Part shown: piece by piece, positions 1 through 14,707 of the stretch | Position numbering within the stretch: position 1 is the stretch's first letter | How the letters are laid out: every line of letters begins with the position of its first letter | IMG/VR virus record: IMGVR_UViG_3300032278_004291 | Coordinates: 1-20,084 of that record | Direction: 5' to 3' (one strand) | From: a virus | Length of the DNA: 20,084 nucleotides | Made by a program: the position numbers and the translations under genes | The notes under the pieces: generated by a model | What the model saw: the letters and a program-made list of their open reading frames with translations, nothing else | What the model was told of the DNA's origin: nothing | Databases searched by the model: none

Positions 1-1236
1 ATGGGCCAAACGATCCATAAATTGAATGCCAAGCAGGTGCAGCACGCGCAGGGGCCGGGCCGATTTTCAGACGGCGGCGGGCTCTACCTTCTCGTATCGA
101 AGACGGGCGCGCGGTCATGGCTTTTCATGTATAAGATTGCCGGCCGCCGGAGGGAGATGGGACTGGGCAGCGCGGCCGCTGGCCATGTCAGCCTCGCCGA
201 AGCAAGGAAACGGGCCGCGGCTGCCCGCGAAGCGGTCGCGGCTGGCGACGATCCTATCGCGCTGCGAGACGAAGAGCGGCGGGAGCGCATCTCGCAGGCA
301 ATCACGTTCGGCGACTTCGCCGATCAGTTCGTTGCCGATCACCGTGACGGATGGTCGAACAGGAAGCATGCAGACCAATGGGGGATGACATTAGGTCCCG
401 CCTATTGCGCCGCCATCAGGTCGCGGCCAATTGGTGAGATTGATGTGAATGACGTGCTCGCGGTGCTTGAACCCGTGTGGCTCAAGAAACCCGAGACGGC
501 GCGCCGGATAAGGATGCGGCTGGAAAAGGTTCTTGCGGCTGCCCGGGTTCGCGGTGTTCACGCCGGGCCGAACCCTGCGGTTTTGCGTGGAAACCTTGAC
601 GTGTTGCTGCCCAAACAACCCAAGCGCCAAGGCCATCACGCCGCCATGCCATGGGAGGATGTTCCCGCTTTCATGGCCGCCCTGCGGGAGCGCGAGGGCG
701 TCTCGGCCCTCGCTCTCCGCTTCGCTATCTTGACGACCGCCAGAACCTCCGAGGTGCTGCACGCCGCGTGGGACGAGATAGACGACGAGCAGGCCGTCTG
801 GACGGTGCCAGAAGAACGCATGAAAGCCCGGCGGCCGCACCGCGTTCCGCTCTCCGATGAGGCGCTGGCAGTGCTGGAAGAGGCGAATGGCTTAGACCCT
901 GAACTAGTGTTCCCGGCGATCCGGGGCAGCGGCCCGATGAGTAACATGGCCATGTCGGTATTACTCAAACGCATGGGCGTGACGGCTGGGACAGTGCACG
1001 GGTTCCGGTCGTCATTTCGGGATTGGGCGGCCGAGGCAACAAATTTCCAGTCGGAGGTCGCAGAAATGGCGCTGGCCCATGTCGTCGGTGATCGAACCGA
1101 AGCGGCTTACAGGCGAGGTGATTTGTTCCAAAAGCGCCGGAAGCTCATGGAGGCGTGGGCGGCTTACTGCATTCCCGATAACGCCGGCGGAGGCGTTATC
1201 GACCTTAAGGGGAGGGCGCGGAATGAACGGGGATAA
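1..1236 (+). CDS. int: Tyrosine recombinase / P4-type phage integrase
   Basis: This 411-residue protein is a site-specific tyrosine recombinase that would insert and excise the element at an attachment site. The N-terminal part (about residues 5-90) has the DUF4102-type arm-binding fold with the typical phrase FSDGGGLYLLV. A SAM-like core-binding domain spans about 100-185 and the catalytic domain about 215-390. The active-site set is visible: R248 in TARTSE, K275 in the beta-hairpin, H333 and R336 in HGFR, H360 in ALAH, and nucleophile Y370 in EAAYRRGD. Length is normal for the family. The ATG lies at the window edge, so any upstream attachment site or tRNA is out of view. The last 14 bases overlap the next gene, which suggests co-transcription. 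Confidence 0.95.
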   Translation: MGQTIHKLNAKQVQHAQGPGRFSDGGGLYLLVSKTGARSWLFMYKIAGRRREMGLGSAAAGHVSLAEARKRAAAAREAVAAGDDPIALRDEERRERISQAITFGDFADQFVADHRDGWSNRKHADQWGMTLGPAYCAAIRSRPIGEIDVNDVLAVLEPVWLKKPETARRIRMRLEKVLAAARVRGVHAGPNPAVLRGNLDVLLPKQPKRQGHHAAMPWEDVPAFMAALREREGVSALALRFAILTTARTSEVLHAAWDEIDDEQAVWTVPEERMKARRPHRVPLSDEALAVLEEANGLDPELVFPAIRGSGPMSNMAMSVLLKRMGVTAGTVHGFRSSFRDWAAEATNFQSEVAEMALAHVVGDRTEAAYRRGDLFQKRRKLMEAWAAYCIPDNAGGGVIDLKGRARNERG

Positions 1237-2168: not shown

Positions 2169-2411
2169 ATGACGAAGATCAACAACCACACCAACCAACC
2201 AGCCGAGCCCCAGCTGGGCGTGATCGCGGGCACAGTGCCGAGCTACACAGTCGAGGGTGCGATGAAGCGGCTGGGGGGGTGCAGCCGTAGCCACATTTAT
2301 GACCTTGTAAGCAAGGGCGTGCTCCGCAAGGGCAAGATCGGTGGCCGAACCCTGATCCGTGGCGTGGACGAGCTCATCGAGGCGGCGTTCGAGGAGGGGG
2401 CCGAGGCATGA
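2169..2411 (+). CDS. AlpA/excisionase-like helix-turn-helix DNA-binding protein
   Basis: This 80-residue protein has a MerR-like winged helix-turn-helix of the kind found in excisionases and AlpA regulators. It is visible at about residues 25-72 (SYTVEGAMKRLGG, then SRSHIYDLVSKGVL, then a basic wing GKIGGRTLI and the helix RGVDELIEA). Members of this family bind next to attachment sites to direct excision, or activate integrase expression in P4-like and PICI satellites. It opens a run of genes with 4-base overlaps. The first 24 residues are polar and probably disordered. An excision role is inferred from the integrase two genes upstream; a purely regulatory role is equally possible. Confidence 0.75.
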   Translation: MTKINNHTNQPAEPQLGVIAGTVPSYTVEGAMKRLGGCSRSHIYDLVSKGVLRKGKIGGRTLIRGVDELIEAAFEEGAEA

Positions 2412-2653
2412 GCTGGGAGAAAAAAATTGTGCGCGCCACAGTAGAAGGCGCAGGCCCCTACACCAACGTGCAACTGGCATTTCTGTTGCGCCGTCTGGAA
2501 ACCGTTCCCGGGGGGCAGGACGCCATTATCGCGGCGATCCGCGACATGGGCCATTGGCTCAATGACCACGCCGACGCGCTTGAGGCGGAAGGCATTGCGG
2601 TCAGCGACACTGAAGAGCTGTTCCGCCGGATCAATCCGGAGGCATCGGCATGA
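2408..2653 (+). CDS. Small hypothetical protein
   Basis: This 81-residue protein has no recognised family. Its start overlaps the previous stop as ATGA, and its own stop overlaps the next start in the same way, so it is almost certainly translated within the operon. The sequence is soluble and helical, with an NVQLAFLLRRLE helix and a GHWLNDHADALEAEGI segment, and it ends in an acidic region. No cysteine cluster, membrane segment or catalytic motif is visible. Its position between an excisionase-like protein and a PC4-like protein suggests an early, regulatory or replication-associated role. Confidence 0.7.
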   Translation: MSWEKKIVRATVEGAGPYTNVQLAFLLRRLETVPGGQDAIIAAIRDMGHWLNDHADALEAEGIAVSDTEELFRRINPEASA

Positions 2654-2865
2654 GGGAGATCGCCAAAAATCAGAGAGAGACGGTCCGCGTCCGCCAGCGC
2701 GACTTCCGGGGCCAGCGCCTTCTCGATGTTCGCACCTTCTACCCAGGGCCGGACGGCGAAATGAGGCCCTCCGGCAAGGGCATCAGCGTCAGCATCGACC
2801 GGGCTGCCGACCTTGCTCGGGCCATCGAGCAGGTGGCCCAGCAGGGGGATGTCGATGATGACTGA
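2650..2865 (+). CDS. PC4-like single-stranded-DNA-binding protein
   Basis: This 71-residue protein resembles the transcriptional coactivator p15 (PC4) family. It has a short leader ending KNQRETVRV, a strand QRLLDVRTFY, the GEMRPSGKGISVSID turn with conserved lysine and glycine, and a final helix AADLARAIEQV. PC4 folds bind single-stranded DNA as dimers, and bacterial and phage members are linked to replication or transcription. A GGAGG at 2638-2642 lies seven bases before the ATG, which itself overlaps the upstream stop as ATGA. Its place directly before the replication initiator fits a role in origin opening or protection of single strands. The family call rests on the sequence pattern alone. 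Confidence 0.65.
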   Translation: MREIAKNQRETVRVRQRDFRGQRLLDVRTFYPGPDGEMRPSGKGISVSIDRAADLARAIEQVAQQGDVDDD

Positions 2866-2943
2866 ACTGGCCTTTGAAAACGTGGAGGCCGCCCTGTCCG
2901 GCAAGATCATGGGCGGCCTCATATCCACATTTGATGGTGTCTC

Positions 2944-3013
2944 CGTGGATGTGCTGAGTATAGCTCAGGCGGCATCCACGGGCAACGAAAAAGGCGGGTT
3001 TTTCCCGCCTTTT
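2944..3013 (+). promoter_or_regulatory. Structured leader with terminator-like hairpin before the replication gene
   Basis: Two structures lie between the PC4-like gene and the favoured start of the replication gene. The first has 8-bp outer arms CGTGGATG (2944-2951) and CATCCACG (2973-2980) enclosing a CTGAG/CTCAG inner stem. The second is a perfect 10-bp stem (2989-2998 with 3004-3013) with a TTTTT loop and a T-rich right arm, the shape of a rho-independent terminator. It may end the excisionase transcript or act as an attenuator for the replication gene. Confidence 0.5.
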
Positions 3014-3034
3014 CCAACCGCAGGAATGCCTAAA

Positions 3035-4150
3035 ATGAGCCTAAACACCTACGTTGAGCAGGAAGCCAGCAAAGCATTCATGAAGCGCAAGATCGCTTGG
3101 GTGCTAGAGGTGACGCAAAATCAGAAACAACTGCACCGGCTCGCCCCCGCTGTGGTGAATATCCTCGCGTTCTACTTCTACAACCCCAAGTGGGGCTACG
3201 CCTACCCCGGCATCCCGAGGATCGCCGAGGAGCTCGGCGCGGGCAAGAACGGTGTAATGGCGGCGATCAAGTCACTTGAAGAGCAGGGTCACTTAAATGT
3301 GGAGCGCCGCGGATACCGATCTTCTCGATATCGCTGGATCATCAAAGGCGACACCGAAAATGCTCAGGATGTCCTAGAAGATGATGAAGGCGCAGTGGTC
3401 CGGAAAGTCGGATCACATGAGCCTGTAGTGGTCCAAAAAGTCGGATCACATGAGCCTGTAGTGGTCCGAAAAGTCGGATCACATGACGCGGCCAATGCAA
3501 GCCGCTACGAAGTAGTCCGAGAAGTCGGATCACATGACTGCGGCGGCGAAAACGCAATAATTCCCTTGTCGTCCGGAAAGTCGGACCAGACGTGGTCCGA
3601 GAAGTCGGACCCTAACCCTTGTAGTGAACCCTGTGAGAGAGGGAGAGACGCCTACAGCGTCTCTCCCTCCATTACCGTGTCACCAAGTTCTACCGTAGTA
3701 GGGGATAGCTCTATCTGCGACGCAGAAGATAAGGAAGAGCGGCTCCTTGAGGGAGCCGCCCTTCCATCCGCGACGGGTGCGCCTTGCGACGGAACCACCC
3801 CGCCTGCTGCGCCGGACAAAGACCACCTCCATCCTGAAAATCCTTCCCCCTCGGATGGCAGTTTCTCGGCTTTCTGGCAGGCCTATCCGAAATGCTGGCC
3901 GGGCGCGGGCGATCCGTTTTCGGGCGAGAGCCTTGACGAGCAAATCGAAGCTCAGGCCGCGTGGGTCGAGTGCGAAGGCGACGGTGATGACCCTGAGGTA
4001 ATCTGCGCCGGGACACGCGCCTTCGCCGCCCACTTCGAGCGGGTAGCCGCGTCCGGTCGAGATCGAGGTGGATGGCCCACGCCATCGGACTTCCTCCGCG
4101 ATGAATTGTGGACCAAATGGCTGGCCAAGCCGGCGGACGGGGAGGTGTGA
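3035..4150 (+). CDS. Winged-helix replication initiator, phage O-like
   Basis: This protein is 371 residues from the ATG at 3035, which has AGGA nine bases upstream. The frame is open back to 2813, so a longer form starting at 2855 or 2858 with AGGGGG upstream cannot be excluded, but it would run through a terminator-like hairpin. Residues about 36-105 form a winged helix like those of phage replication initiators (VNILAFYFYNPKWG, then a recognition region GKNGVMAAIKSLEEQGHL). Residues 120-193 are encoded by iteron-like DNA repeats. A low-complexity linker follows. The C-terminal part starts FSAFWQAYP and resembles the ends of alphaproteobacterial phage replication proteins. It probably binds the repeats in its own gene, as lambda O does at its origin. 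Confidence 0.7.
   Translation: MSLNTYVEQEASKAFMKRKIAWVLEVTQNQKQLHRLAPAVVNILAFYFYNPKWGYAYPGIPRIAEELGAGKNGVMAAIKSLEEQGHLNVERRGYRSSRYRWIIKGDTENAQDVLEDDEGAVVRKVGSHEPVVVQKVGSHEPVVVRKVGSHDAANASRYEVVREVGSHDCGGENAIIPLSSGKSDQTWSEKSDPNPCSEPCERGRDAYSVSPSITVSPSSTVVGDSSICDAEDKEERLLEGAALPSATGAPCDGTTPPAAPDKDHLHPENPSPSDGSFSAFWQAYPKCWPGAGDPFSGESLDEQIEAQAAWVECEGDGDDPEVICAGTRAFAAHFERVAASGRDRGGWPTPSDFLRDELWTKWLAKPADGEV
3395..3610 (+). repeat. Six iteron-like repeats inside the replication gene (putative origin)
   Basis: Core copies with consensus GTCCGRAAAGTCGGA start at 3398, 3431, 3464, 3515, 3571 and 3595. The first three are 33 bp apart (about three helical turns) and share flanks through TCACATGAGCC. Each core is itself a dyad, TCCGA-N4-TCGGA. 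Copies 1-4 are read in one frame (VRKVGSH) and copies 5-6 in another (GKSD), so the DNA is conserved across a change of reading frame. That points to a DNA-level role such as initiator binding. Confidence 0.7.
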
Positions 4151-4152
4151 CT

Positions 4153-4698
4153 ATGGACGGACACGACACCCCCAACACCGCCGCGCCCGCTTGGGCGCGC
4201 GGCCTCGACGATGATCTCGACGGCTTCGTTGCGCTGGCGGAATGGGGCCTACTGTGCCGCAACCACGCCGGCCGGCGAACTGCGGTTCAAATGATCAGGT
4301 GGATCGCCGGCGCCGGTGAGGCTGAAACGCTCGAACAGGTCTTAAACCTCGACGGCGCCGGCTGGACGGGCGCGAGGATGCGACTACGGATGGCGCAGCG
4401 CGATGCCGCCATCAGGCGGATCGCGGCGATCTGCTGGCCCGAGCTTTCGGTCTCGGCAAAGGCCCAGGACCTTGCCGTGAAGTGGCGCCGGTGGGCGGCT
4501 GATGTCGCCAATCGGCCCGCACCGCCTTTCGAAAAAGAGCCGGCGGCGACATTTCGCAAGCTCAGCGAGGCGGGCCACAAGCCGCTAGGCAAACGGCAAC
4601 TCCAAGAAATCTTGTCCCGTGAATTGGCAAAGTCGACCCCGGTGGAGACCGCCAGCGACGCCAGCCATGTTGATGACAAGAAGGACGAAACGCCATGA
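4153..4698 (+). CDS. Hypothetical protein between replication and tail genes
   Basis: This 181-residue protein starts at the ATG at 4153, chosen because GGAGGT at 4141-4146 lies at ideal spacing. The open frame extends upstream into the replication gene without a better signal. The N-terminal part contains LDGFVALAEWGLLCRNHAGRRTA and an AGEAETLEQVLNLDGAGWTGARMRL segment. The C-terminal part is charged and likely disordered. No family is recognised. It overlaps the following tail chaperone by ATGA, so the replication and tail genes appear to share one transcript. That junction is unusual, because these modules are normally far apart in phages. Confidence 0.7.
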   Translation: MDGHDTPNTAAPAWARGLDDDLDGFVALAEWGLLCRNHAGRRTAVQMIRWIAGAGEAETLEQVLNLDGAGWTGARMRLRMAQRDAAIRRIAAICWPELSVSAKAQDLAVKWRRWAADVANRPAPPFEKEPAATFRKLSEAGHKPLGKRQLQEILSRELAKSTPVETASDASHVDDKKDETP

Positions 4699-4955
4699 CA
4701 AAACTAAGGCTCGACATTCCCGTAAACCATGGCGGCAACACGATCCGCGAGGTGAGGGTCCGCCGTATCCCTAACCGACACATCCCGAAGCTGTGCCGCG
4801 CCGCCGAGGGGGACGCATTCGGTTTCGTCGAGGTGGCCGTGGCGCTGATGACCCGACTGCCCGAGGAAGTTGTAGGCGAGATGGATGCCGCCGATTTCAA
4901 GCGGCTCGCGCTCGTACTCGACCGCGCCATCCCGAAAAAACTAACCACGAGGTAG
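4695..4955 (+). CDS. Phage tail assembly chaperone (E/gp41/gp14 type)
   Basis: This 86-residue protein matches the pattern of small tail assembly chaperones of the Mu gp41 / P2 E class. It has a strand-rich start LRLDIPVNHGGNTIREVRVRRI, a helix after HIPKL, and the typical end in which LMTRLPEEVVGEMDAADFKRL sets the position of a short helical pair. These proteins coat the tape measure before the tail tube forms. The identification is supported by its place: the tape measure gene begins four bases after its stop. I see no slippery sequence for the frameshifted second product (the E' or GT type) and no room for it before the tape measure gene. Confidence 0.7.
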   Translation: MTKLRLDIPVNHGGNTIREVRVRRIPNRHIPKLCRAAEGDAFGFVEVAVALMTRLPEEVVGEMDAADFKRLALVLDRAIPKKLTTR

Positions 4956-4959
4956 ACCT

Positions 4960-7900
4960 ATGGCCCAGCAAACGTCGCGTCTCATTGTCGAGCTTCTGGA
5001 CCGGGTGTCGGGCCCGGCGCGCTCGGTCGCGCAATCCATCCGCAAGATCGGCCGGGTTAGCCGGGAGAATAGCCGGCTGACATTCGGTGAGCGGCTGGAC
5101 GGCGCTATGACGCGGGTGGACGCCAGCCTTGCGCGCGCCCGCGGCGGGCTGTTTGACGCGGCGGCGGCGGCCTACACCATGAAAACCGCCATCGGCGCCC
5201 CGATTGGCGCGGCCATGAGCTTCGAGAGCGCCATGGCCGATGTGCGCAAGGTGGTTGACGAGTTTGGCGAAGGCGAAGGGGCGGAACAGCGGTTCGGCGC
5301 CTTCAAGAAGGAAATTACCGATCTAAGCAAAGAAATCCCAATTCAGGCCGAGGGCCTTGCGGCCATTGCGGCGGCGGCTGGCGAGGCCGGGATTGCGGCG
5401 GAGGACTTGACCAAGTTCACCAAGCAGGCCGGCATCGCGGCGACCGCCTTTGGCATGGACGCCGGGCAGGTGTCCGAGGTGATGTTCAAGCTGGGCAACG
5501 TGTTTGGGATGGGCGTTGACGATCTGGCCGCGTTCAATGATACCGTAAACCATATCAGCAACACGCTATCGGCCAAGGCGCCGGAGGTGCTCGACTTCAC
5601 CAACCGCGCCGCCGGTGCGGCGAACATGCTAGGCCTCACCGCCGATCAGGTCGCCGGCTTCGGCGGCGCCCTGATTGATAGCGGGGTTAAGGCGGAAACG
5701 GCGGCGCGCGGCGTCAATGCGCTGGCCACCCGTCTGCGCACCGGGGCGAAGGGGGTAGACGGCACCCTGCGCAAGATCGGCATGACGCGGGACGAATTCC
5801 TTGCAATGGTCGATCAGGACGGCGATGCGGCCATGATCGACATGTTCACCCGGCTGTCCAACCTTCCGCTGAACGATCAGGCGGAGGCCCTTAAGGCGCT
5901 GGTCGGGCAGGATTTCAGCGACGATTTTAGCAAAATCCTCGCGAACCCCGAGAACCTGAAAAAAGGGTTCGACCTTTCGAACGACGCGGACAAGGCGGGC
6001 TCCGCGTTTCGGGAATTTCAGGTCCGAATTCAGACGCTTGAAGCGCAGCTTAAGTTATTCAAAAATCGCCTAGCGGACGCTTTGCGCCCCATCGGCAACG
6101 CGCTCATTCCGGGGCTGAAAAAGCTCATGAAGGCCTTGCAACCGGTTATCGACGGGGTGTCCCGCTTCGCCAAGGCCCACCCGGAATTGATCAAGAATAT
6201 CGTGGCCGCCACGGGCGCGGTATTTGCGTTCAAGGTCGCCCTTGCGGGCCTTCGCTACCTTGGCCTGTTCGGGCTATCCAGCATCCTGCATGGCGTAGCC
6301 GGGGGCTACCGGGCTATTGCCGCGACCGCCGGGCCATTGGGCCGGGCGGTCGGGCAGAGCGTAGGATTGCAGCGCAGCCTTGCCGCTATGGCGGGCACCC
6401 GGCTGGGCTTCCTTGGCACGATCAAGGCGGGGCTCTCTGGCATTGCGGGCGTAACCGGCCTGACGGCGGTATCGCGGGGTGTTCGGGCTGTGACCGGCGG
6501 GCTTGCGCGCGGCCTCAAGAAGATCGCGGATATCACCGGCCTGACAGCCGTAGCGCGCGGCGTACGCGCCGTGGCGCACGCCACGGGGCTTGTTCACGTG
6601 CCCAAGGGCATCGGTCTGCTGGCCAAGGGCCTTGGCAAGATTGCCGGTGTTGCGGCGCGGCTGACCGGCCTCAAGCTTTTGGCCAGCGGCATCACGGCCA
6701 TCGTGGCCGCCATCGGCGCGATCAGCGCCCCGCTCTGGATACCCATCGCCGCCGCCATTGCGGCGGTCGGCGCGGCGTGGGTGTTCTGGGACAGGATCAC
6801 GGCCATCGTGTCGGGCGTGGCCTCCGCCATTGGCGAGCAGCTTGCCCCCGTCATGGACGGGATCAAGGAAAAGCTTGAATTCTTGGAGCCGCTGGTGCGC
6901 CCGGTCGGGGAGGCGTTCGCCTTCCTTGGCGAGAAGATCAGCGCGGCATGGCAGGCGATCAAGGATTTCTTTTCCGGCGATATGTTCCGCGAGAAGTTGG
7001 GCGATGAAGAGTTCGCCAGCATCGAGGCGCGCGCCAAGGCGGTTGCCACCACCATCATCGAGACGATCAAGGGCGCCTTCCGCGATTTCTTCGAATGGGT
7101 GAAAAGCATCCCGGAAAAGATCATCGACGCCATCGGCGAAATCGACCTTTCCGACGCGATCAAGTGGCCCGAAATTCCGCCGAAAATTGAAGCACTTTGG
7201 AACCGCCTGTTCGGCGAGGACAAGCCCGAGCCGATCAAGGTAACGCGCGAGGATTTGGCGGCGGATGCGGCGGCGGCGGGCCAGACCGAACAGCAGCGCG
7301 CGGAGGCGGTTATCGCGGACGCGGGAAGCCTGCCCACGGCGGGCGAGCTTGCGGATATGGGCGCGGAGGCGGATAGCCTCCGCGACAAGATCGCGGCCAT
7401 CAACCGGGAAATCCGCAATACCCCGAGCGGCCGTGGCGGAGATCGGAAGATTGCCGCGTTGCAGGCCGATCTTGGACCGCTGAAAGCGCGGCTGGCGGAG
7501 GTCGAGAGCGATATAGCCGAGGCCACCCGCCGGACGGGCGAGCTTCAGGTGGCCCTTGAGGTCGTCGGCAGCGCGGACGTGACACCCAACATCAATGACA
7601 GCGCCATTCGGCAGGCCCGCCAGCAGGCGGAGGCGCTGGAACGATCGCTGAACCGCATCAACAGCGGCAGCGCGGCGGCACCAGCCGCCGGGGCGGACGT
7701 TGACGGGCAGAAGGCACGGGGCGGGCCGATCACGCGGGGTGCGTCGTATCTCACGGGCGAGCGCGGGCCGGAGATTGTCGCGGCCACGCGGAGCGCCTAC
7801 GTGGCGACCGCGCAGGCGACAAAGCGGCTTGCCAGCCTTGCCCGGGCGCCGGGCCTTGGCTCGCGCCTCGCGCCCATCACGGGCGCGGCGGAGCGGGCGA

Positions 7901-8292
7901 CAGCGGGGCTCAAGCGGGTCGCCGGGGCGATGGCCCCCAAGGCGGCCCCGGCGGCGTCCAGCGGGCGCACCGGGCCGAACCTGAAGGACGGGCAGGGCCC
8001 GCTACTGGTCAGAGAGCGCGACAGGCCGGAGATGGACGGTGTGGGCGCGGTCCAGCGCCTTGCCCGGGCCATGCAAGCCCCGGCGGCGGCCGATGCCGAT
8101 AGCGGGCGGAAAGCGCCCGCCCCGGCGGCGCCCCAGCCCGTTCAGGTTTCACTAGCCCCGGTGTTCAACTTCACCGGCGTCAGCGGGCCGGACGCGGGGC
8201 AAATCCAAGGGCAGGTCCGAGCGGCCTTGCAGGAGGAGGTCCGCGAATTGTTCCGGGGCGTCATGAGCGACACGGGAATAAGGATCACATGA
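4960..8292 (+). CDS. Phage tail tape measure protein, TP901 type
   Basis: This intact 1110-residue protein would set tail length and help eject DNA through the host membrane. Residues about 65-330 carry the TP901-type core, including SFESAMADVRKVVDEFGE, repeated A/G-rich amphipathic helices such as EGLAAIAAAAGEAGIAAEDL, and MDMFTRLSNLP. Hydrophobic membrane-like helices lie at about 567-627. Before them a 27-residue unit is repeated, with ITGLTAVARGVRAV-like phrases near 499 and 526. A charged coiled coil follows near 800-870. The C-terminus (1060-1110) has the usual VSLAPVFNF and helical end. GAGG at 4949-4952 supports the start. By the usual proportionality of about 0.15 nm per residue it would fit a tail of roughly 165 nm. 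No tube, baseplate or fibre gene follows it. Confidence 0.9.
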   Translation: MAQQTSRLIVELLDRVSGPARSVAQSIRKIGRVSRENSRLTFGERLDGAMTRVDASLARARGGLFDAAAAAYTMKTAIGAPIGAAMSFESAMADVRKVVDEFGEGEGAEQRFGAFKKEITDLSKEIPIQAEGLAAIAAAAGEAGIAAEDLTKFTKQAGIAATAFGMDAGQVSEVMFKLGNVFGMGVDDLAAFNDTVNHISNTLSAKAPEVLDFTNRAAGAANMLGLTADQVAGFGGALIDSGVKAETAARGVNALATRLRTGAKGVDGTLRKIGMTRDEFLAMVDQDGDAAMIDMFTRLSNLPLNDQAEALKALVGQDFSDDFSKILANPENLKKGFDLSNDADKAGSAFREFQVRIQTLEAQLKLFKNRLADALRPIGNALIPGLKKLMKALQPVIDGVSRFAKAHPELIKNIVAATGAVFAFKVALAGLRYLGLFGLSSILHGVAGGYRAIAATAGPLGRAVGQSVGLQRSLAAMAGTRLGFLGTIKAGLSGIAGVTGLTAVSRGVRAVTGGLARGLKKIADITGLTAVARGVRAVAHATGLVHVPKGIGLLAKGLGKIAGVAARLTGLKLLASGITAIVAAIGAISAPLWIPIAAAIAAVGAAWVFWDRITAIVSGVASAIGEQLAPVMDGIKEKLEFLEPLVRPVGEAFAFLGEKISAAWQAIKDFFSGDMFREKLGDEEFASIEARAKAVATTIIETIKGAFRDFFEWVKSIPEKIIDAIGEIDLSDAIKWPEIPPKIEALWNRLFGEDKPEPIKVTREDLAADAAAAGQTEQQRAEAVIADAGSLPTAGELADMGAEADSLRDKIAAINREIRNTPSGRGGDRKIAALQADLGPLKARLAEVESDIAEATRRTGELQVALEVVGSADVTPNINDSAIRQARQQAEALERSLNRINSGSAAAPAAGADVDGQKARGGPITRGASYLTGERGPEIVAATRSAYVATAQATKRLASLARAPGLGSRLAPITGAAERATAGLKRVAGAMAPKAAPAASSGRTGPNLKDGQGPLLVRERDRPEMDGVGAVQRLARAMQAPAAADADSGRKAPAPAAPQPVQVSLAPVFNFTGVSGPDAGQIQGQVRAALQEEVRELFRGVMSDTGIRIT

Positions 8293-8711
8293 ACTTTTTT
8301 GAACAAGCAAAAGCGAATGCCGCTGCGGCCCGTGGGGGCCAAGCGGCCGGGGTCCAGCAACACCAACAGGAGGGACGCATGACCAATTCACCGAATTCAA
8401 AACAGGCCGCCATCAAGGAAGGCGCGGAGGCCGAGCGCGCCCGCATCGGCGCCATTTTGACCTGCGAAGCGGCGGAAGGCCGCGAGCCGCAAGCCCGCGC
8501 GCTGGCGCTGGAAACCGACCTGACGCCCGAGGCGGCCGCGAAGGTCTTGGAGGCCAGCCCGAAAGCGTCGGCCCACCTGTCCATCGAGGAGCGGGCGCAG
8601 GGCGAGGTGGAGATGGGCGGCGATGGCCCGGTCACTCCGGAAACCGCCGCGGATCGGGCGTGGAGCAAGGCCGCGAAGGCGGTTCGAGTTGGCGATTTTG
8701 GCCCCCGTTGA
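8289..8711 (+). CDS. Scaffold-like protein resembling the C-terminal part of phage head proteases
   Basis: This 140-residue protein begins as ATGA overlap with the tape measure gene. A second in-frame ATG at 8379 has a much better ribosome site (AGGAGG at 8368-8373) and gives a 110-residue product, so both forms may be made. From about residue 45 it reads ERARIGAILTCEAAEGREPQA, then ALETDLTPEAAAKVLEASPKAS. This pattern is common at the C-terminal end of alphaproteobacterial phage ClpP/S49-type head proteases, where the tail acts as internal scaffold. No protease domain is present. A free-standing scaffold segment could assist or alter capsid assembly. The resemblance is by eye, and the function is inferred. 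Confidence 0.5.
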   Translation: MNFFEQAKANAAAARGGQAAGVQQHQQEGRMTNSPNSKQAAIKEGAEAERARIGAILTCEAAEGREPQARALALETDLTPEAAAKVLEASPKASAHLSIEERAQGEVEMGGDGPVTPETAADRAWSKAAKAVRVGDFGPR

Positions 8712-8756
8712 GACCGCCACCCAAAGCCAACGATATTCGCCTAAAAGGAGGAACCT

Positions 8757-9143
8757 ATGCAGTATGACAGCACCAATCGCCTGAGCCATTTGGCCGCTAT
8801 CAAGCGGGCCAAGTTGGCCGCTGCCCGCGAGGCAGACGACCATGCCGCGGAACTACGAGATCGGCTCGCTCGCGAGCGTCAACGCCGCGCCCGGCTTGCC
8901 GATGAGGCCGCCTTTCGCCCCGCCGATGTGGAGAAGCAGATTGCGGCCGTGGATGAGAAGATCGCCGCCATCGCAGAGGAAAAAGCGCGACACGAAGAGG
9001 ACCGCGAGCGCATCGGCGCTGAGCTTCAGGCCGCCGGCGGGGCGTATGGTGCGGCGCTTCGCTATGCCAAGGAGCAAGGTCTGCCCCTGCCACACGATAT
9101 CGACGCTGGTTCCCACCAACTCACAAATGAGGCAGCGGAATGA
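8757..9143 (+). CDS. Hypothetical coiled-coil protein
   Basis: This 128-residue protein has an excellent ribosome binding site, AAGGAGG at 8745-8751, five bases before the ATG. Residues about 10-95 are almost entirely charged and alanine-rich helix with heptad character (READDHAAELRDRLARERQRR, then VEKQIAAVDEKIAAIAEEKARHEED), a probable long coiled coil. The tail is short and polar. It has no known family, membrane segment or signal peptide. It overlaps the next gene by ATGA. Lying between a scaffold-like protein and a small terminase, it could be a structural, scaffolding or capsid-modifying factor, but nothing in the sequence proves this. Confidence 0.7.
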   Translation: MQYDSTNRLSHLAAIKRAKLAAAREADDHAAELRDRLARERQRRARLADEAAFRPADVEKQIAAVDEKIAAIAEEKARHEEDRERIGAELQAAGGAYGAALRYAKEQGLPLPHDIDAGSHQLTNEAAE

Positions 9144-9685
9144 ACATGTTGAAGAACCTCAAATCCGCCCGAGGGAAGGCCGCCAAGGCCACGTCCGAGG
9201 CGCAGGCCGCCTTGTCCGAAATTCGCCAACTGCGCCTTCGGCTTCTTGATCAGCGCGACGATGTCGCGAGCCGGGCGCTGCCTCTCGATCACGCTATCGA
9301 GGCGATGGAGCGAGCGCTGGAACGGCAGGTCGAGCAAGCGGTTGGCGACATCAACCTCAGCAGCTTGACGCGCCCCGGCGGGCGCGAACCAAGCCTCAAC
9401 CTTGATGCCCATGATCGCGCTTCTCTCGCCTTCGCGGCCGCCCGCGGTGATATCGGCGCGCTTCTCCGCGAGCGGCTGGAAGCCCAATACGAGGGCGGCC
9501 TCGAGGCGTTGGCGCCGGAGGAGAAAGCGAAGCGCTTGGCCGCCTTGGACGAGGAGCTTTTGTCGTGCGAGTTGGCCGAGGAAAGCACAATCCGCGAGCT
9601 TGAAGCCGCCGGCATCGCCGTAATGCGCCGCTCGGACGCGGACCCGCGGGCCACGTTGGCGTCTGACAGCGAGATGGCCGCATAG
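9140..9685 (+). CDS. Hypothetical helical protein
   Basis: This 181-residue protein is translationally coupled to the preceding gene through an ATGA overlap. It begins with a lysine-rich helix (MNMLKNLKSARGKAAKATS), then a heptad-like segment to about residue 75 (LRLRLLDQRDDV, MERALERQVEQAV). A short polar region follows, then further helices (ALAPEEKAKRLAALDEELLSCELAEESTIRELEAAGI) and a disordered end. No family is recognised. The pairing of two adjacent coiled-coil proteins suggests they may form a hetero-oligomer. The gene is followed by a structured 100-base gap before the small terminase gene. Confidence 0.7.
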   Translation: MNMLKNLKSARGKAAKATSEAQAALSEIRQLRLRLLDQRDDVASRALPLDHAIEAMERALERQVEQAVGDINLSSLTRPGGREPSLNLDAHDRASLAFAAARGDIGALLRERLEAQYEGGLEALAPEEKAKRLAALDEELLSCELAEESTIRELEAAGIAVMRRSDADPRATLASDSEMAA

Positions 9686-9687
9686 AA

Positions 9688-9767
9688 TTCCGGGTTCGGG
9701 TTGGCCTCCTCCGGCCAGTCGAGCTCGAGCCCGGAAGGCGGCGGCGGGGCCCGCGCCCGCCGTCGCC
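9688..9767 (+). promoter_or_regulatory. Two stacked GC-rich hairpins in front of the small terminase gene
   Basis: The first stem pairs 9688-9698 with 9726-9736 (11 bp, one G-U) and encloses TGGCC/GGCCA. The second pairs 9737-9748 with 9756-9767 (12 bp, one G-U) around a 7-base loop. No T-run follows, and the terminase ribosome site AAGGAGG begins eight bases later at 9775. The structure could be a translational control, an RNA processing site or part of a packaging site. Confidence 0.45.
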
Positions 9768-9786
9768 ACCAACGAAGGAGGCACCC

Positions 9787-10266
9787 ATGCCCACCAATTT
9801 AGAAGACAGGATCGTCACCACCAAGGAAGCGGCCGCGCTGATCGAGCGGTCGGATACCTTCATTCGCGGCCTCGTCAACAGCGGATACATCGCCCAGCAC
9901 TCGCGCGGGAAGTATAAGACCGGTGAGGTGGTCGCAGGTGTGATCGCCTATTATGAGGACAAGGTAGCGGAGGGCAGAAGGGACAACACAGCCACCGCCG
10001 CCAGCGAGGCCCGCACCCGCGAGATCGAGGCGCGCATCGCAGCGCGGGCGAGCCACCTCATGCCAACAGAGGACGCTTTGTCTGTCATGGCGGAGATTAC
10101 GCAAATGTTCGAAACTGAGTTCGTGGGCTTCGAGAACGTGACGAACAACCCTGAAATGCGCCGGACCTTGCAAAAGGAGGTCGATGGCATTTTCACTCGC
10201 CTTGCGGCAAAAGCCGAACAGGCAGGCGAGGCGCTGCGGACCGGCGACCTCGACAATATGCTGTAG
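9787..10266 (+). CDS. Terminase small subunit, Nu1-like
   Basis: This 159-residue protein resembles Nu1-type small terminase subunits, which recognise cos or pac DNA and hand it to the large subunit. The N-terminal winged helix-turn-helix is visible at residues 9-55 (IVTTKEAAALIERSDTFIRGLVNSG, then a basic turn SRGKYKTGEVVAGVIAYYED). A charged linker contains ARTREIEARIAARASHLMPTEDAL, the typical transition to the large-subunit contact region, and the rest is helical. AAGGAGG at 9775-9781 gives a strong start. It is the last gene before a perfect terminator, and no large terminase follows in this transcript. The nearest large subunit, at 16532, belongs to another module. Confidence 0.7.
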   Translation: MPTNLEDRIVTTKEAAALIERSDTFIRGLVNSGYIAQHSRGKYKTGEVVAGVIAYYEDKVAEGRRDNTATAASEARTREIEARIAARASHLMPTEDALSVMAEITQMFETEFVGFENVTNNPEMRRTLQKEVDGIFTRLAAKAEQAGEALRTGDLDNML

Positions 10267-10307
10267 GGCAGCGCGCCCCTTGTCGCGCCCAGCCCGCCAG
10301 CCGGTCT

Positions 10308-10341
10308 AGACCCCCAGCGTCAGCGCTGGGGGTCTTATCTT
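10308..10341 (+). terminator. Terminator of the long left-module transcript
   Basis: A perfect 12-bp stem (10308-10319 with 10324-10335) with a TCAG loop is followed by TATCTT. It lies about 40 bases after the small terminase stop. Confidence 0.85.
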
Positions 10342-10474
10342 GTGCGGTCATCCTTTCACCCTGAGACCGCCCTACGTCAATTCATGCTATCTGGCGATCT
10401 GGACGCGCCTTCGCGGGTCAGCTAATAGAAATCATGCGATTCGCGGGCGATACCACCCAGCCAGCCAATCGCGC

Positions 10475-10532
10475 GGCGCTTATCCCCAACTAAGCGCCAC
10501 AAGGACCCCCAGCCTGCCCGCTGGGGGTCTTT
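10475..10532 (+). terminator. Second terminator with the same stem sequence, preceded by a small hairpin
   Basis: GACCCCCAGC at 10503-10512 pairs perfectly with 10519-10528, followed by TTTT. The stem repeats the sequence of the terminator at 10308. Just upstream, GGCGCTTA (10475-10482) pairs with TAAGCGCC (10491-10498). No open gene ends here, so this may terminate a short non-coding transcript from 10342 onward, or it may be a duplicated terminator. Confidence 0.7.
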
Positions 10533-10559
10533 TCACGTCCGTTTCACCATCCTGCATAG

Positions 10560-10883
10560 GGCGACAAAGAGCGCTCTGGGACAAAACTGACCGCCGCCGA
10601 GCAGGCGACCTTTACGGCCAAGCGGAAGGCGGCTTATTTGGCGCTGCATCCCGAGACGGGGCATGGAAGGAACAGCCCCAAGGAGAGTGGCGAAGTTTGC
10701 CACTCTTCGTTTGCCAATGATCAAGCCGAGAAAACAGGCGCATCCGCTCGCACCGTTCGCCAAAACGCCGAGCGCGGCGAGAAGATCACCCCCGCCGCGC
10801 TGGGGCTGGTGCGGGGCACGGCGCTGGATACCGGGGCCTTTCTCGACCGGCTGCAACAAGCCGCTTGGCAGGGTCGGGGATAG
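10560..10883 (+). pseudogene. C-terminal fragment of a ParB-domain protein
   Basis: The frame entering after an in-frame TAG at 10556 reads LTAAEQATFTAKRKAAYLALHPETGHG. It then reads EKTGASARTVRQNAERGEKI and ALDTGAFLDRLQQ, ending at a TAG at 10881-10883. This is the characteristic second half of ParB/Srx-domain proteins of alphaproteobacterial phages and plasmids, in which HPET and the KTGxSxRTVxRxxxRG helix-turn-helix are hallmarks. The N-terminal nuclease half is missing and there is no ATG start or ribosome site, so this is most likely a stump left by deletion or recombination. A short product from the TTG at 10638 is possible but unlikely. It is unrelated in sequence to the ParB domain of the methyltransferase at 14708. 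Confidence 0.65.
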
Positions 10884-11786
10884 CTCCTGCACGATAACGA
10901 AGCCCGAGATGGCCACCGCATTATCAAGAAAAACCAGAAGATAATTCCCGAAATCGGGAAATTATTCTTCTGATCATACGCCCGAATGCCTGCGTTTGCG
11001 CTCATGCGGAACTTCAATAAATCATCCTAGCTGACTGATATTAAATGGAATAGGGACCGTAAGGGGGTGGTAAAGAGGCCTGCGCAGCCCCAGCCCAGAA
11101 TTTGTCCGTTTTTCAAGATTTTCAAAATAGTGTTCTGTTCTGTAATCTGGATCGCCCGCAAATCCTCGCGGTGCGGATTGCCGGAAGGGATCACCCGCCG
11201 GATGGCCTTGTTTTTCAGGATTTCGAGGGGCCCGGCCTCTGGCGGGGAGCATCGCCCGCGCCCGGCGATTGCGCCGGCGAAATTGAACCGGGGGTATGGT
11301 CGGGACGGGCAATATCAGCCCGGATAGGACAGCACGCGCGCCCTATTGCCTCTGGGGTGTGGACGTCATTCCGGGGCATAGCTTCATAGCTGGCGCGAGA
11401 GGCCCGCTCAGGGGCTTCTCGCTCGATCCGCCTGCGGGACCCGCTGAATAGGCTCAGCGCCCGCCAGTGGTCCGCTCTGGCGATCTCGCGACCTTCACGC
11501 CCTCTTGCGGGCCATCGCTTGCCGCCCCTGTAATCTCCTACAGGCCCGTGTTCCGGTGCTACGGGCCCGGCGGGCGGCTCTTGCCCGTCGCCCGGCCGCG
11601 CGGAGCATGGCTGTCGTGCTGGTGCATGAAGTCAGGGGCGCGGGCTGGTTTGTCCAAATGCTGGCGCGGGGCTGCGCCTCGGCGGGCCGCCTTTCGGCGG
11701 GGCATTCGATCACCTGCGGAGCCCGGCAAGAGGCACTCATGCCTCATGCCGGCATCATCACCAAACAGGCCCGCTCGCGGGAAGGC
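10884..11786 (+). other. Long intergenic stretch without a convincing gene
   Basis: No open frame here shows gene-like composition, a ribosome site and a recognisable product together. A near-palindrome spans 10935-10972: CAGAAGATAATTCCCG faces CGGGAAATTATTCTTCTG across an AAAT loop, matching except for two extra bases on the right, with no T-run. From about 11380 to 11780 the DNA becomes very GC-rich, with several short GGCCCG/CGGGCC inverted pairs. Overlapping open frames occur on both strands (for example 11505-11855 on +, which would run antisense through the repressor gene), and I consider them spurious. It may hold non-coding RNA or old plasmid or phage debris. Confidence 0.5.
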
Positions 11787-11939
11787 CTACTTCGGAAGGT
11801 AGCCGTTATTCTTGAGCCAGTCGGATACCAGCTTGTCGAGCATGGACGAGACTGAGCGGGCATCGTCTTTCGCCGCCTTCTCAAGGGCTTCCTTTTTATC
11901 CGCATCGAGGCGGAAAGATATTGGCACGCTCTTTTGCAT
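11787..11939 (-). CDS. Small ribbon-helix-helix (Arc/CopG-type) repressor
   Basis: This 50-residue protein, read on the minus strand from ATG at 11939 to TAG at 11787, has the full Arc/CopG layout. The DNA-contacting strand is SVPISFRLD (residues 4-12), helix A is ADKKEALEKAAKDDA, and helix B is SVSSMLDKLVSDWLKNNGY. Arc is 53 and CopG 45 residues, so it is complete. Such proteins bind DNA as pairs of dimers and usually repress their own and a divergent promoter. The ATG is only five bases from a four-half-site operator, with no Shine-Dalgarno sequence visible, so the mRNA may be leaderless. Its likely targets are itself and the divergent gene at 12082. Confidence 0.8.
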   Translation of the reverse strand: MQKSVPISFRLDADKKEALEKAAKDDARSVSSMLDKLVSDWLKNNGYLPK

Positions 11940-11941
11940 TA

Positions 11942-12007
11942 TTTGTAGTTATCCGTAGTTGACGTGGAAAGACACTGTCGCTACGGATAACTACACTGAA
12001 CTACAAA
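11942..12007. promoter_or_regulatory. Four-half-site operator between divergent genes
   Basis: A perfect 15-bp inverted repeat pairs 11944-11958 with 11981-11995. Within it the half-site GTAGTT occurs at 11945 and 11955, ten bases apart. Its complement AACTAC occurs at 11989 and 11999, also ten bases apart. The outermost TTTGTAGTT and AACTACAAA also mirror each other. Tandem half-sites one helical turn apart are the classic layout for paired ribbon-helix-helix dimers. A possible + strand promoter, TTGACG (11959) with TACGGA (11982) at 17-bp spacing, lies inside the dyad. Confidence 0.75.
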
Positions 12008-12013
12008 AGCAAC

Positions 12014-12047
12014 GGCCCTTGCTGGTGATTGAGCACCAGCAAGGGCC
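12014..12047 (-). terminator. Perfect 14-bp hairpin in the leader of the 12082 gene
   Basis: Arms 12014-12027 and 12034-12047 pair perfectly around ATTGAG. On the minus strand the stem is followed by a T-rich stretch (GTTGCTTTTGT), so it fits a terminator that keeps minus-strand read-through out of the repressor gene. On the plus strand it would lie in the 5' leader of the 12082 gene without a T-run. Confidence 0.5.
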
Positions 12048-12081
12048 TGACCAAAGCACGATCTAATGAGGAGATCACACA

Positions 12082-12381
12082 ATGGCTGACGCGAACCCTA
12101 ACGACCGCAACGAACCTCGGACAGAAATAATACACACAATTGCGAGCCCCTACGCGCACTATCGCCTTCGCCGAACGCAGGCGGTGATTATGGCCCAAAG
12201 CCTTTGCGATGCAGGGGCGGAGCCGGGCGAGCCGGACGCGGCGCTGAGGCAAAGGCTTCTGGATGCGGGGCACTATCAGCATGAAATCAACGTCGCCGGC
12301 GACGCCGCCATCCGGGCCTTCCGCGAGGCGTGCATCCTGCCCACAGGAAACCACCCGGGGCCCGCTGGCCCTTCCTCATAG
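12082..12381 (+). CDS. Hypothetical protein divergent from the repressor
   Basis: This 99-residue protein is preceded by GAGGAG at 12068-12073, eight bases before the ATG. The N-terminus is polar (MADANPNDRNEPRTE). The middle forms helices with HYRLRRTQAVIMAQSLCDAG and DAALRQRLLDAGHYQHEINVAGDAAIRAFREACI, and the end is proline- and glycine-rich. No family, membrane segment or signal peptide is recognised. It is transcribed away from the ribbon-helix-helix gene across their shared operator, so it is probably repressed by that protein. The small size and this layout recall regulated accessory or anti-repressor genes, but function is unknown. Confidence 0.7.
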   Translation: MADANPNDRNEPRTEIIHTIASPYAHYRLRRTQAVIMAQSLCDAGAEPGEPDAALRQRLLDAGHYQHEINVAGDAAIRAFREACILPTGNHPGPAGPSS

Positions 12382-12399
12382 GCCCAGCAAGATCGAACG

Positions 12400-12460
12400 A
12401 AGGCGCCCGGATAACCGGGCGCCTTGGGGGACAATGCTGGCGTCGGTATAAGCGACGCCA
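12400..12460 (+). other. Two consecutive hairpins after the 12082 gene
   Basis: The first is a perfect 11-bp stem (12400-12410 with 12415-12425) with an ATAA loop. The second pairs TGGCGTCG (12438-12445) with CGACGCCA (12453-12460). Neither is followed by a T-run. The first may still act as a transcript end or stabiliser. Confidence 0.5.
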
Positions 12461-12768
12461 ATCCGAGCGACTGCTATGCGCAGAAGCGACCTTTGCAAAG
12501 CCGTGGCCGTTCTCCGAAAGCCGACCTTCGCAACAGGTGCAGCGATCGGCGGGTCGGAGCTCGAAGCGGACCCAGAGCCCTTGGCTCGAAACTGCGAAAG
12601 CTGATCTTCACCGCGCGGAGCGCGAACCGGTGAGATGCGGGACGACGCAGTCTTGCCCCACGCATCACACTACGCGCTGCTTTTGTATAGCGCTTTCATG
12701 ACAGATTTTTTCACTACGAATTGCCGGAGCAGCTTGCGGTATAGCTTCAGGCGAACGAGACTTCCGTC
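12461..12768 (+). other. Intergenic repeat-rich stretch before the membrane protein gene
   Basis: No gene is seen in about 310 bp. The DNA is built from degenerate units containing GAAAGCYGAYCTTC (near 12515 and 12597) and related CGAAGCGGA phrases. This composition is common in non-coding interspersed repeats of Rhodobacterales. The best-defined unit is annotated separately at 12558-12643. Confidence 0.5.
12558..12643 (+). repeat. Left copy of a diverged 86-bp inverted repeat
   Basis: By hand alignment this segment matches the reverse complement of 13540-13625 over its full 86 bases without gaps. Identity is 64/86 overall and 41/51 in the block 12593-12643, which starts TGCGAAAGCTGA and ends TGCGGGAC. 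The two copies bracket the membrane protein gene. Confidence 0.65.
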
Positions 12769-13512
12769 ATGATGGATGACTCTCAAACACAGACCCGCGC
12801 GAAGACTAAGACCGAGAGTCGAAAGCCTCTTTTGGTCTACCTTAAGCAGTGCGCCGCGCACTTGTGGCTCGGTATATGCGCTCTGTGGCCTCTTTGGATC
12901 GGCATTTTTGCTTTGGTCGCCGTTTGGTTGATTTTGTTTGTTTTGGGTTGCCGAGAAAAAGACATCCGATTGCTAGGGATGCTCCTGCAACTAGGTGGAT
13001 TCCTGACTGTCGCAAAGGGACTGAGAGACTCCGGCAGGCTGTTCAAAAAGCCGACTGTTCGAGAAAGAATCGCGCTTTACTTCAAAAGATTTCCACGACG
13101 CCGCGTTACAAAACACATCGCTTCGGCCCAAGGGGTTTCTGTCAGCGTCCCCACTGCAAGGGGCAGGGGCATGGTTTTACCCCGGCCAGACACACCGCTC
13201 GAAAGGCGTGTGGAGATGTTGGAAGAAAGAACAACAAGCCTCTTCAGGGAAGTTGGCGAACTTGAAGGAAAACTCAGAGCGCAATCGGATGAGTTGACGC
13301 TCAAGATCACAGAAGAAGTCACCCAAAGAAGAGCAGGGCATAGAGCGTTTGAAGAACAACTTGAGAGGGCCGTCATCGGCGGTATTCATGTCGAATGGTG
13401 GGGCGTCAGCTTCTTCATTGCCGGTATTATACTCGCAAGCGCATCGCCAGAGCTTGCGGGTCTGCTGGGGAATGCTGGAAACTGCGCACTGCCAACAGTC
13501 AGATCATTCTAA
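12769..13512 (+). CDS. Membrane protein with central coiled coil, unknown function
   Basis: This 247-residue protein starts at ATG 12769 or at 12772; no strong ribosome site distinguishes them. Residues about 33-60 form a clear hydrophobic segment (LWLGICALWPLWIGIFALVAVW). A weaker one lies at 66-84, and a third near 209-226 (WWGVSFFIAGIILASA). Between them lies a basic region (RERIALYFKRFPRRRVTKH), then a heptad-like stretch at about 142-200 (LERRVEMLEERTTSLFREVGELEGKL). Base composition is less GC-rich than the neighbours, suggesting separate acquisition. Diverged inverted repeats flank it on both sides. Small membrane and coiled-coil proteins in such cassettes are sometimes phage-defence effectors, but no known defence domain is visible. 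Confidence 0.7.
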   Translation: MMDDSQTQTRAKTKTESRKPLLVYLKQCAAHLWLGICALWPLWIGIFALVAVWLILFVLGCREKDIRLLGMLLQLGGFLTVAKGLRDSGRLFKKPTVRERIALYFKRFPRRRVTKHIASAQGVSVSVPTARGRGMVLPRPDTPLERRVEMLEERTTSLFREVGELEGKLRAQSDELTLKITEEVTQRRAGHRAFEEQLERAVIGGIHVEWWGVSFFIAGIILASASPELAGLLGNAGNCALPTVRSF

Positions 13513-13539
13513 GTTGCACCTGCAGCGAACGGCCGGAAG

Positions 13540-13625
13540 GTCCCGCAACCTACCAGTTCGCGGCACGCGCGGCCAAGGTCAGCTTTCGCACTATCGCGCC
13601 GGTCGCGATGCTTCCGCTTCGGGCT
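13540..13625 (-). repeat. Right copy of the 86-bp inverted repeat
   Basis: This is the inverted partner of 12558-12643, beginning 28 bases after the membrane protein stop. The block 13540-13590 is the best conserved (41/51), and the outer TCCGCTTCGGGCT at 13613-13625 matches 12/13 at identical spacing. Confidence 0.65.
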
Positions 13626-13836
13626 GGCACCAGCCGTGCACTTGCACCATCTGAGGCCGGGGTAAGCTCGCCCCTTTTTTTCTTGAGTTTGTCCGCCAAA
13701 TCCATGCCTTCGGTGGGGATAGGAGTGGGAATAGAAAAGCCAAGAATATAAAATTACAATACAATCAATAACTTATATATCAAGTTAGCATCCCACCTCC
13801 TCCGCCACCCAGACGAGTCTCATTTCCGGTGTGCAT

Positions 13837-14113
13837 TTTCCCTGCGAATTCCCGCGTGTTTTCCGGGTCTTGCAAACGGCATCTAGAAACAGAGACGCAC
13901 CGTTTCCCTGATTTCCCGCGCAACATCGGGCCGCGTCTCAGTCGGCCAAATAGCACGCTTCGGTTTTGCTGAGATTTCCCTGGTCGCAGGGAATTTTGCA
14001 GGGAAATTTCTCAAATTTCGTCGAACAACGAGAAAAGACCCGAGGAACATTTCTTGATATCAGGCAGTTACGAGAAATTCCCTGGCTGTCCGAGCAGGGA
14101 ATTTGCAGGGAAT
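13837..14113 (+). repeat. Cluster of CAGGGAA / TTCCCTG repeats
   Basis: TTTCCCTG followed shortly by TTCCC occurs at 13837-13853 and 13903-13919. Two larger composite units follow about 100 bp apart. The first, 13971-14012, is GAGATTTCCCTG, then CAGGGAATTTTGCAGGGAAAT and TTCTC. The second, 14072-14113, is GAGAAATTCCCTG, then CAGGGAATTTGCAGGGAAT. Each unit is internally an inverted repeat and the two are direct repeats of each other. Similar motifs occur in non-coding DNA near mobile elements of alphaproteobacteria. Confidence 0.6.
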
Positions 14114-14550: not shown

Positions 14551-14579
14551 TTGACATGTTTGGGCGATTTTGCGATTGA
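14551..14579 (+). promoter_or_regulatory. Possible promoter of the methyltransferase operon
   Basis: TTGACA at 14551-14556 is a perfect -35 match. A weak -10, GATTGA, lies 17 bases further at 14574-14579. It is about 130 bases upstream of the methyltransferase start and no other clear candidate lies nearer. Confidence 0.35.
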
Positions 14580-14707
14580 AAAGGTACAAAACTCGAAGCT
14601 CGAATACAGCAAGCTTCCGACTTCATCGCCCTGAACGCGATGGTCGAAGCATGCCGTCTAGGGCGCTTCTCTCCATCGCAGAAATCAACATTGCGTACGG
14701 AGAGACC

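Follow-up and report, generated by a model that had tools for sequence, protein, structure and literature searches.

The window analysed here is the whole 20,084-base stretch of the viral record. It begins at an integrase gene, and the left end of the element lies outside it. The genes of the element are listed in Table 1. Seven of the 12 gene junctions overlap, five of these by four bases. The small helix-turn-helix protein has no match in PHROGs. When the tRNA-Ser core of the related satellite L066 was sought with up to 3 mismatches, no convincing right att site was found in the window. Positions 14708-20084 are occupied by a second mobile element or prophage remnant, encoding a ParB-DNA methyltransferase (phrog_498), a 151-aa protein of phrog_26239, which we take to be DUF5681-like, and, on the opposite strand, a large serine recombinase and a DUF2924 protein. 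The large terminase encoded at 16532-17953 (phrog_38) is of another type than the helper's, and by position would belong to this neighbouring element.

Table 1. Genes and predicted products of the integrase-to-small-terminase region of the window
Feature	Positions	Strand	Remarks
Tyrosine integrase	1..1236	+	50-52% identical to integrases of satellites L066 and L101
Small helix-turn-helix protein	2169..2411	+	Pfam HTH_17, E 4e-6; AlpA/excisionase-like by size and place
71-aa protein	2650..2865	+	common to satellite L060 (49%)
Replication initiation protein	2855..4150	+	phrog_270, E 3.7e-14 (scanned from the start at 2813)
181-aa protein	4153..4698	+	homologue in satellite L061 (37%)
Tail assembly chaperone (TAC)	4695..4955	+	Pfam Phage_TAC_7, E 5.4e-7
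Tape measure protein (TMP), 1110 aa	4960..8292	+	TIGR01760, E 7.4e-60
Free-standing scaffold protein, predicted long form, 140 aa	8289..8711	+	start coupled to the tape-measure stop (ATGA)
Predicted nested short form, 110 aa	8379..8711	+	AGGAGG before ATG; counterpart of the internal Nu3-type start in full-length S49 head proteases
128-aa charged protein, coiled-coil-like by eye	8757..9143	+	family found only in satellites here (alignment A3)
181-aa satellite hallmark protein	9140..9685	+	alignments A2/A6; C-terminal RRxDADPRxxLA motif
Small terminase-like protein (TerS)	9787..10266	+	phrog_57, E 4.7e-7; 49% identical to TerS of the G001:C225 prophage

The ORF at 8289-8711 starts with ATG and is open throughout. 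Its start codon, preceded by ...gaaTAAGGAtcacATG, overlaps by four bases (ATGA) the stop of the tape-measure gene. A second ATG in the same frame, at 8379, follows ...caacAGGAGGgacgcATG, and would give a protein of 110 aa. A first-pass annotation, made from the letters alone, had proposed two nested products of 140 and 110 residues, the longer from a weak coupled start and the shorter from a strong ribosome site. Both starts are in place, as are the coupling of the first and the strong site of the second; the upstream start is less weak than was believed, because a 6-base Shine-Dalgarno match precedes it as well as the start at 8379. The 30 residues ahead of the 8379 start stand where the protease would be, and no relative of them was seen. 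The predicted structure of the protein is weak (mean pLDDT 55.7) and mostly helical.

Compared with PHROGs, the ORF matches two head maturation protease families, phrog_53 (E 7.5e-10, profile positions 326-409 of 583) and phrog_17040 (E 1.1e-9), and the head scaffolding protein family phrog_8399 (E 5e-8). Nothing significant was found in Pfam and NCBIfam (best E 0.097 and 0.3, respectively), and the 140-aa protein has no match in 50,697 phage records. The suspected likeness to the C-terminal region of head proteases, for which ClpP and S49 types had both been envisaged, is thus confirmed by profile search, and no unrelated known family was identified. The matches are to S49-type proteases, and a ClpP-type relation was dropped. 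The catalytic S49 domain has no match anywhere in the window, in keeping with the claim that the protease part is absent.

A protein search with the scaffold identified eight viral contigs, one being the window's own sequence, and three genome contigs. In the ten non-self contigs the match is the C-terminal end of a 412-494 aa open frame starting with an S49-type protease; among these contigs L006 and L007 are alike, L008, L009, L011 and L012 are nearly alike, and L010 is partly masked in the scaffold. L010, a contig of a Loktanella MAG, is the closest relative (83% identity over window-scaffold residues 44-84); identity to the fused protein L003 is 49% over residues 49-128. The IMG/VR record 2740892146_000003 equals window positions 7606-20084 letter for letter, and L002, L013 and L015-L017 are not independent rows, being the same sequence as the window. 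In the order of the Loktanella MAG, presumably Rhodobacterales, 9 of 390 genomes match the scaffold, each time in a frame of 392-500 aa; the match in G195 belongs to the satellite element L065 described below. The window scaffold retains the W-K-A region that the fused phage forms have at the C-terminus.

The family profile matches residues 323-419 of lambda C (i-Evalue 1.9e-18 in a single-sequence search), and a protein of G261 is 36% identical to lambda C over 418 aligned columns. On the strength of this match and this alignment, the window scaffold is assigned to the lambda C/Nu3-type scaffold domain family. Pairwise comparison gave dN 0.34 and dS 0.71 for the scaffolds of L062 and L101, dN 0.27 and dS 1.64 for those of the window and L010 over 54 codons. 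Silent change exceeds amino-acid change in both pairs and, as far as substitution counts tell, relatives of the scaffold are shown to be under purifying selection.

In full-length protease genes an ATG with a good Shine-Dalgarno sits between the catalytic part and the scaffold core. Scoring took the best ATG located 95-150 codons from the gene end, and equal-length windows elsewhere in the same genes served as controls. Shine-Dalgarno matches of at least 5 bases were found in 17 of 19 S49 protease-scaffold genes vs 9 of 74 control windows, the former count overstating independence because the rows include near-identical relatives (L003-L005, L008/L012, L021-L023). The two genes below threshold are L024 (4 bases) and L032 (3 bases). 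The set includes lambda and L028, which is the gene of satellite element L065. Left out are L007, L009 and L011 (identical or nearly identical to kept rows), L018-L020, L030 and L068 (same genes as kept rows), the fused frames L027 and L038, and L040. The position of each start relative to that of the window was read from the alignment in some of the rows.

In lambda C, an ATG at 5342 (L102:1043; codon 309) lies behind AGGAGGG, in line with the conserved internal start. NC_001416 annotates nu3 from 5132 (codon 239), upstream of the 5342 start; no Shine-Dalgarno comparable to that of codon 309 was seen at codon 239. The signal being conserved in full-length protease genes, lambda included, the start at 8379 is most simply read as an inherited Nu3-type start, of which the signals are read directly and the product is predicted. 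The Nu3-like character first ascribed to this start is therefore backed by starts at the same place in lambda C and in most of the full-length relatives examined.

Absence of phage genes was assessed with 17 morphogenesis proteins of the G261:C8 prophage as queries (threshold E 0.01). PHROGs names them as large and small terminase, portal, head-tail adaptor, head maturation protease, decoration, major head, sheath, baseplate and tail proteins, baseplate hub and tape measure. The query located between sheath and chaperone is called tube by position, its PHROGs name being 'head closure'. P2 letters V, J, I, U, X and D are assigned to query proteins on our own assumption. All 17 are matched in prophage G001:C225. 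At this threshold, 11 of the queries remain unmatched throughout 11 satellite stretches and the rest of the window, namely large terminase, portal, head-tail adaptor, major head, sheath, the tube-position protein and five baseplate/tail proteins. Only protease/scaffold, decoration, TAC, TMP, X and TerS are matched. The absence weighs less for L098 and L099, because the queries come from one phage type. PHROG scans of eight L098 and three L099 proteins revealed no portal and no large terminase, and no capsid protein except for a weak match of L098 to 'major head and protease protein' (E 0.0035).

Provided with its own integrase and replication genes, and devoid, in these searches, of capsid, portal, tube and helper-type large terminase genes, the window element qualifies by gene content as a phage satellite, as the first-pass annotation had supposed. 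PICIs are defined by int, alpA/stl, pri-rep and terS. By this definition the window carries a PICI-like set (int, HTH_17 regulator, rep, terS), the integrase, the small HTH regulator, the replication initiator and the small terminase being the features it would have in common with PICIs and cf-PICIs. cf-PICIs produce a capsid of their own, whereas the search identified no capsid gene in the window element; the G261:C8 major head protein is unmatched in the window and in 10 other satellite stretches. None of the P4 genes psu, sid and delta was named by family scans of the window's proteins. The host is probably an alphaproteobacterium, since the relatives are alphaproteobacterial.

Homologues of the window TerS (41-49% identity), scaffold (48-83% locally) and TMP are all found within one P2-like phage type, which is for this reason the probable helper. 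The window TMP is 31% identical end to end to that of G261:C8, and 41% identical over 1-504 to that of G001:C225. The three homologues reside together in G001:C225, G261:C8 and G305:C29 (in the last the TMP is cut by the contig end, and only the N-terminus is present). In G261:C8 and G001:C225 TerS precedes TMP by 18-20 kb; in the window TMP leads and TerS closes the series, all on one strand. Deletions alone cannot yield the reversed TMP-scaffold-TerS order, and the element is therefore not a deletion remnant. Judged by tape measure, Paracoccus phage vB_PyeM_Pyei1 is the closest phage with a name (34% over 56% of the query). Genomes G001 and G339 carry both satellite and helper type, a co-occurrence which is only suggestive, because G001 was chosen for its scaffold and both genomes are fragmented. 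Phage TMP open frames measure 1089, 1055, 934, 841, 799 and 774 aa, vs 1110 aa in the window. The idea of a shorter satellite tape measure was dropped, and nothing points to a shorter tail, since the satellite TMP is not shorter than the phage TMPs.

The family of the 181-aa hallmark protein was used to identify related elements. As a single query the protein matches 8 of 390 genomes of the order, and the family profile 7 of 390; G094 (E 1.7e-4, one internal stop) was dropped, as the profile search did not recover it. Of 385 genomes across the class, 4 contain members, G708, G400 and G750 being new; one further IMG/VR element, L101, has a member as well. L103 is L101 again; L060, L061 and L100 are short contigs, kept outside per-satellite counts. 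These counts refer to nine well-covered satellites: the window, L101, L062, L063, L064, L065, L066, L098 and L099, the last a distant family member (E 3.3e-10). Direct repeats 15-44 bp long, 8.1-14.5 kb apart, bound five of the six related loci searched. Four are located at the 3' end of a tRNA gene: tRNA-Gly in L062 (16 bp) and L063 (17 bp), tRNA-Met in L064 (15 bp), tRNA-Ser in L066 (15 bp). The L098 repeat measures 44 bp, and none was found in L099. The hallmark protein, mostly helical in a weak structure prediction (pLDDT 59.7), could possibly act as an external scaffold. Its gene adjoins the 128-aa gene in 7/9 satellites, and the 128-aa family occurs in 7/9. Eighteen viral contigs similar to the L101 tape measure (L104-L121) encode neither the 181-aa nor the 128-aa family.

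The scaffold varies among the nine satellites. It is present without protease in four, as a single domain in the window, and as two tandem domains followed by an extra C-terminal tail in L062, L063 and L101. L065 carries a whole protease-scaffold gene, with S49 domain (Pfam E 1.1e-33) and nested start signal. No scaffold was identified by profile in L064, L066, L098 and L099 (4/9), and the scaffold is hence inessential to the satellite family. A 249-aa protein of L098 and a 125-aa protein of L099 are scaffold-like by eye only, and were for this reason kept out of the count; the former has best PHROGs matches at E 0.00053 (unknown) and 0.0035 ('major head and protease protein') and none in Pfam, the latter has no family match. 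Tape measures are encoded by three satellites: the window, L101 (870 aa) and L098 (606 aa, other type). A recognised tail chaperone lies beside the tape measure in the first two; two small proteins located by the L098 tape measure were not counted as chaperones (unknown PHROG and weak tail-protein match, no Pfam). Small terminase-like genes (phrog_57) reside in at least six of the nine, the proteins of L064, L065 and L098 having been scanned in part. L101 has scaffold, TerS, TAC and TMP, the same functional set as the window.

Separate scaffold genes are not confined to satellites. Across 385 genomes of the class the scaffold profile gave 15 matches in 12 genomes. Eight of the 15 loci were followed, and the scaffold is a separate ORF in seven, fused in the eighth. 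Of the other matches, five lie in 443-536 aa frames; a further copy in G443 (210-aa frame) and the match in G523 (1120-aa frame) were kept outside the protease count. An S49 protease match adjoins the separate scaffold ORF in all seven non-satellite loci, which are presumed to be prophages. The notion that any free-standing scaffold is odd was accordingly dropped. What seems peculiar to satellites, among the loci examined here and judging from gene neighbourhoods, is the scaffold without protease, seen in the window, L062, L063 and L101 only.

A satellite carrying its own protease-less scaffold next to its own tail-length gene probably rebuilds the helper particle for its own DNA. The reading preferred, to which a probability of about 65% is given, is that a satellite-borne lambda C/Nu3-type scaffold, derived from a P2-like phage gene, redirects helper capsid assembly, along with tail and packaging substitutes. 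Homology and context show that the scaffold descends from the C-terminal half of the S49 protease-scaffold gene of a P2-like phage, the protease having been lost. Its translation would begin both at 8289, where the start is coupled to the tape-measure gene, and at 8379, the ancestral Nu3-type start. Judging from the genes present, the satellite's own contribution would be scaffold, tape measure, tail chaperone and small terminase; judging from those missing, the helper would provide capsid, portal, large terminase, protease, tube, sheath and baseplate. The satellite scaffold would bind helper coat protein and enter helper procapsids, either replacing the helper scaffold or mixing with it, and would, like SaPI1 CpmB, steer assembly to a head which fits an element of roughly 8-14 kb. 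A chimeric tail would result from tape measure and chaperone, as in PLE, and packaging would be guided to satellite DNA by the small terminase.

Parts of this scheme have counterparts in known systems. SaPI1 CpmB (with CpmA) is described as a satellite-encoded alternative internal scaffold, the role proposed here; it competes with the helper scaffold for coat protein, which it binds via a C-terminal region common to the helper scaffold (PMC5644958). By that description, a RIIK motif close to the C-terminus is common to CpmB and the 80alpha scaffold, whereas in the window the whole scaffold domain is homologous to the phage gene. Lambda C/Nu3 belongs to the same domain family and has its nested start in the same linker region; lambda makes the scaffold from within the protease gene, and in the window the protease part is gone. 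According to the passages cited, PLE of Vibrio cholerae, like the window, encodes scaffold, TMP and TAC (PMC10945586, PMC12987554); in contrast to the window scaffold, PLE TcaP is an external scaffold, not of lambda C/Nu3 type, and host and helper differ. PLE TMP and TAC make chimeric tails, as demonstrated in 2026 (PMC12987554), and a tape measure in a satellite is hence not new in itself. Putative tmp genes in PLE-like elements and cf-PICIs are mentioned in the legend to Extended Data Fig. 10 of the same paper. In the Pseudomonas satellite AH14b, the tape measure described in the text cited is the helper's (PMC4936722). The satellite scaffold of P4, Sid, determines the size of P2 heads, and P2 is broadly the same kind of phage as the probable helper; Sid is an external scaffold, while that of the window is of the internal type.

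Other roles for the scaffold are conceivable. Made in excess, a scaffold without protease would dilute the protease-scaffold fusion, and may poison helper procapsids, left with too little protease, thus protecting the host cell. Such interference, unlikely here, has a parallel in PLE, where small-capsid remodelling of coat proteins is reported also to inhibit phage (PMC10945586); however, the window scaffold sits among packaging and tail genes, which serve transmission, and satellite L065 keeps an entire protease-scaffold gene with S49 domain, needless for a pure poison. Small weight is also given to the scaffold as a spare part which supplements that of the helper, e.g. in portal incorporation, and leaves head size unaltered. 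SaPIbov1 and P4 are described as still needing the helper internal scaffold, likely for portal incorporation (PMC10945586), and the W-K-A region retained in the window scaffold agrees with this view. Three related satellites feature tandem domains and a new C-terminal tail, an architecture which suggests an altered rather than duplicated scaffold role.

A decayed prophage with a few surviving morphogenesis genes would explain why only some late genes are present, and an element with an other-type large terminase and a serine recombinase does lie beside them. Origin as a prophage remnant was nevertheless set aside on account of gene order and recurrence, and is rated very improbable: genes are tightly packed, with most junctions overlapping, their order is reversed with respect to the prophages seen here, L101 has the same functional set again, flanking repeats are present in related elements, and purifying selection is seen in relatives.

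One reading, against which the odds lean slightly, is that alphaproteobacterial satellites swap head scaffold, tape measure with chaperone, and packaging factor together, as the window and L101 might, and feature a series of scaffolds including a tandem ruler; if so, the particles, built from helper shell, tube and sheath, would have new dimensions in both head and tail. The scaffolds can be arranged in a series, from whole protease-scaffold (L065) to single protease-less domain with nested start (window) and tandem domains (L062, L063, L101), of which the last may work as a size ruler.

By the account of PMC10945586, only a few mechanisms are on record by which satellites resize phage heads. 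If the role proposed is true, the window scaffold would mark a new class, in which a satellite sets size with a protein directly homologous to the lambda-type internal scaffold that its helper encodes. A satellite TMP combined with a lambda-type internal scaffold was not found among the matches listed in open-licence literature, nor were the two terms 'phage satellite' and 'Rhodobacterales', the only ones paired, found together there. The data raise the questions of how head size responds to a protease-free Nu3-type scaffold, and to its tandem version, and for what reason satellites encode a tape measure of their own. For annotation, the start signal that is conserved within S49 head proteases, that of lambda included, is a useful clue.

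Additional features were observed in single satellites. In L065, the S49 protease-scaffold gene (8252-9646) has a serine recombinase nearby, and no other helper-type capsid gene was found. L062 encodes a decoration protein (phrog_49; 11551-12204) and a baseplate-hub X-like protein (phrog_46; 13558-13788), both homologous to the helper-type phage. L101 encodes a 568-aa tail-fibre-like protein (5372-7078; phrog_2712, E 5.9e-27), possibly a satellite-made change in what the particles bind. In L098, the region 5620-17300 includes the other-type tape measure (606 aa) and two copies of a small phrog_6454 protein; the type of this tape measure suggests independent capture from a different phage class.
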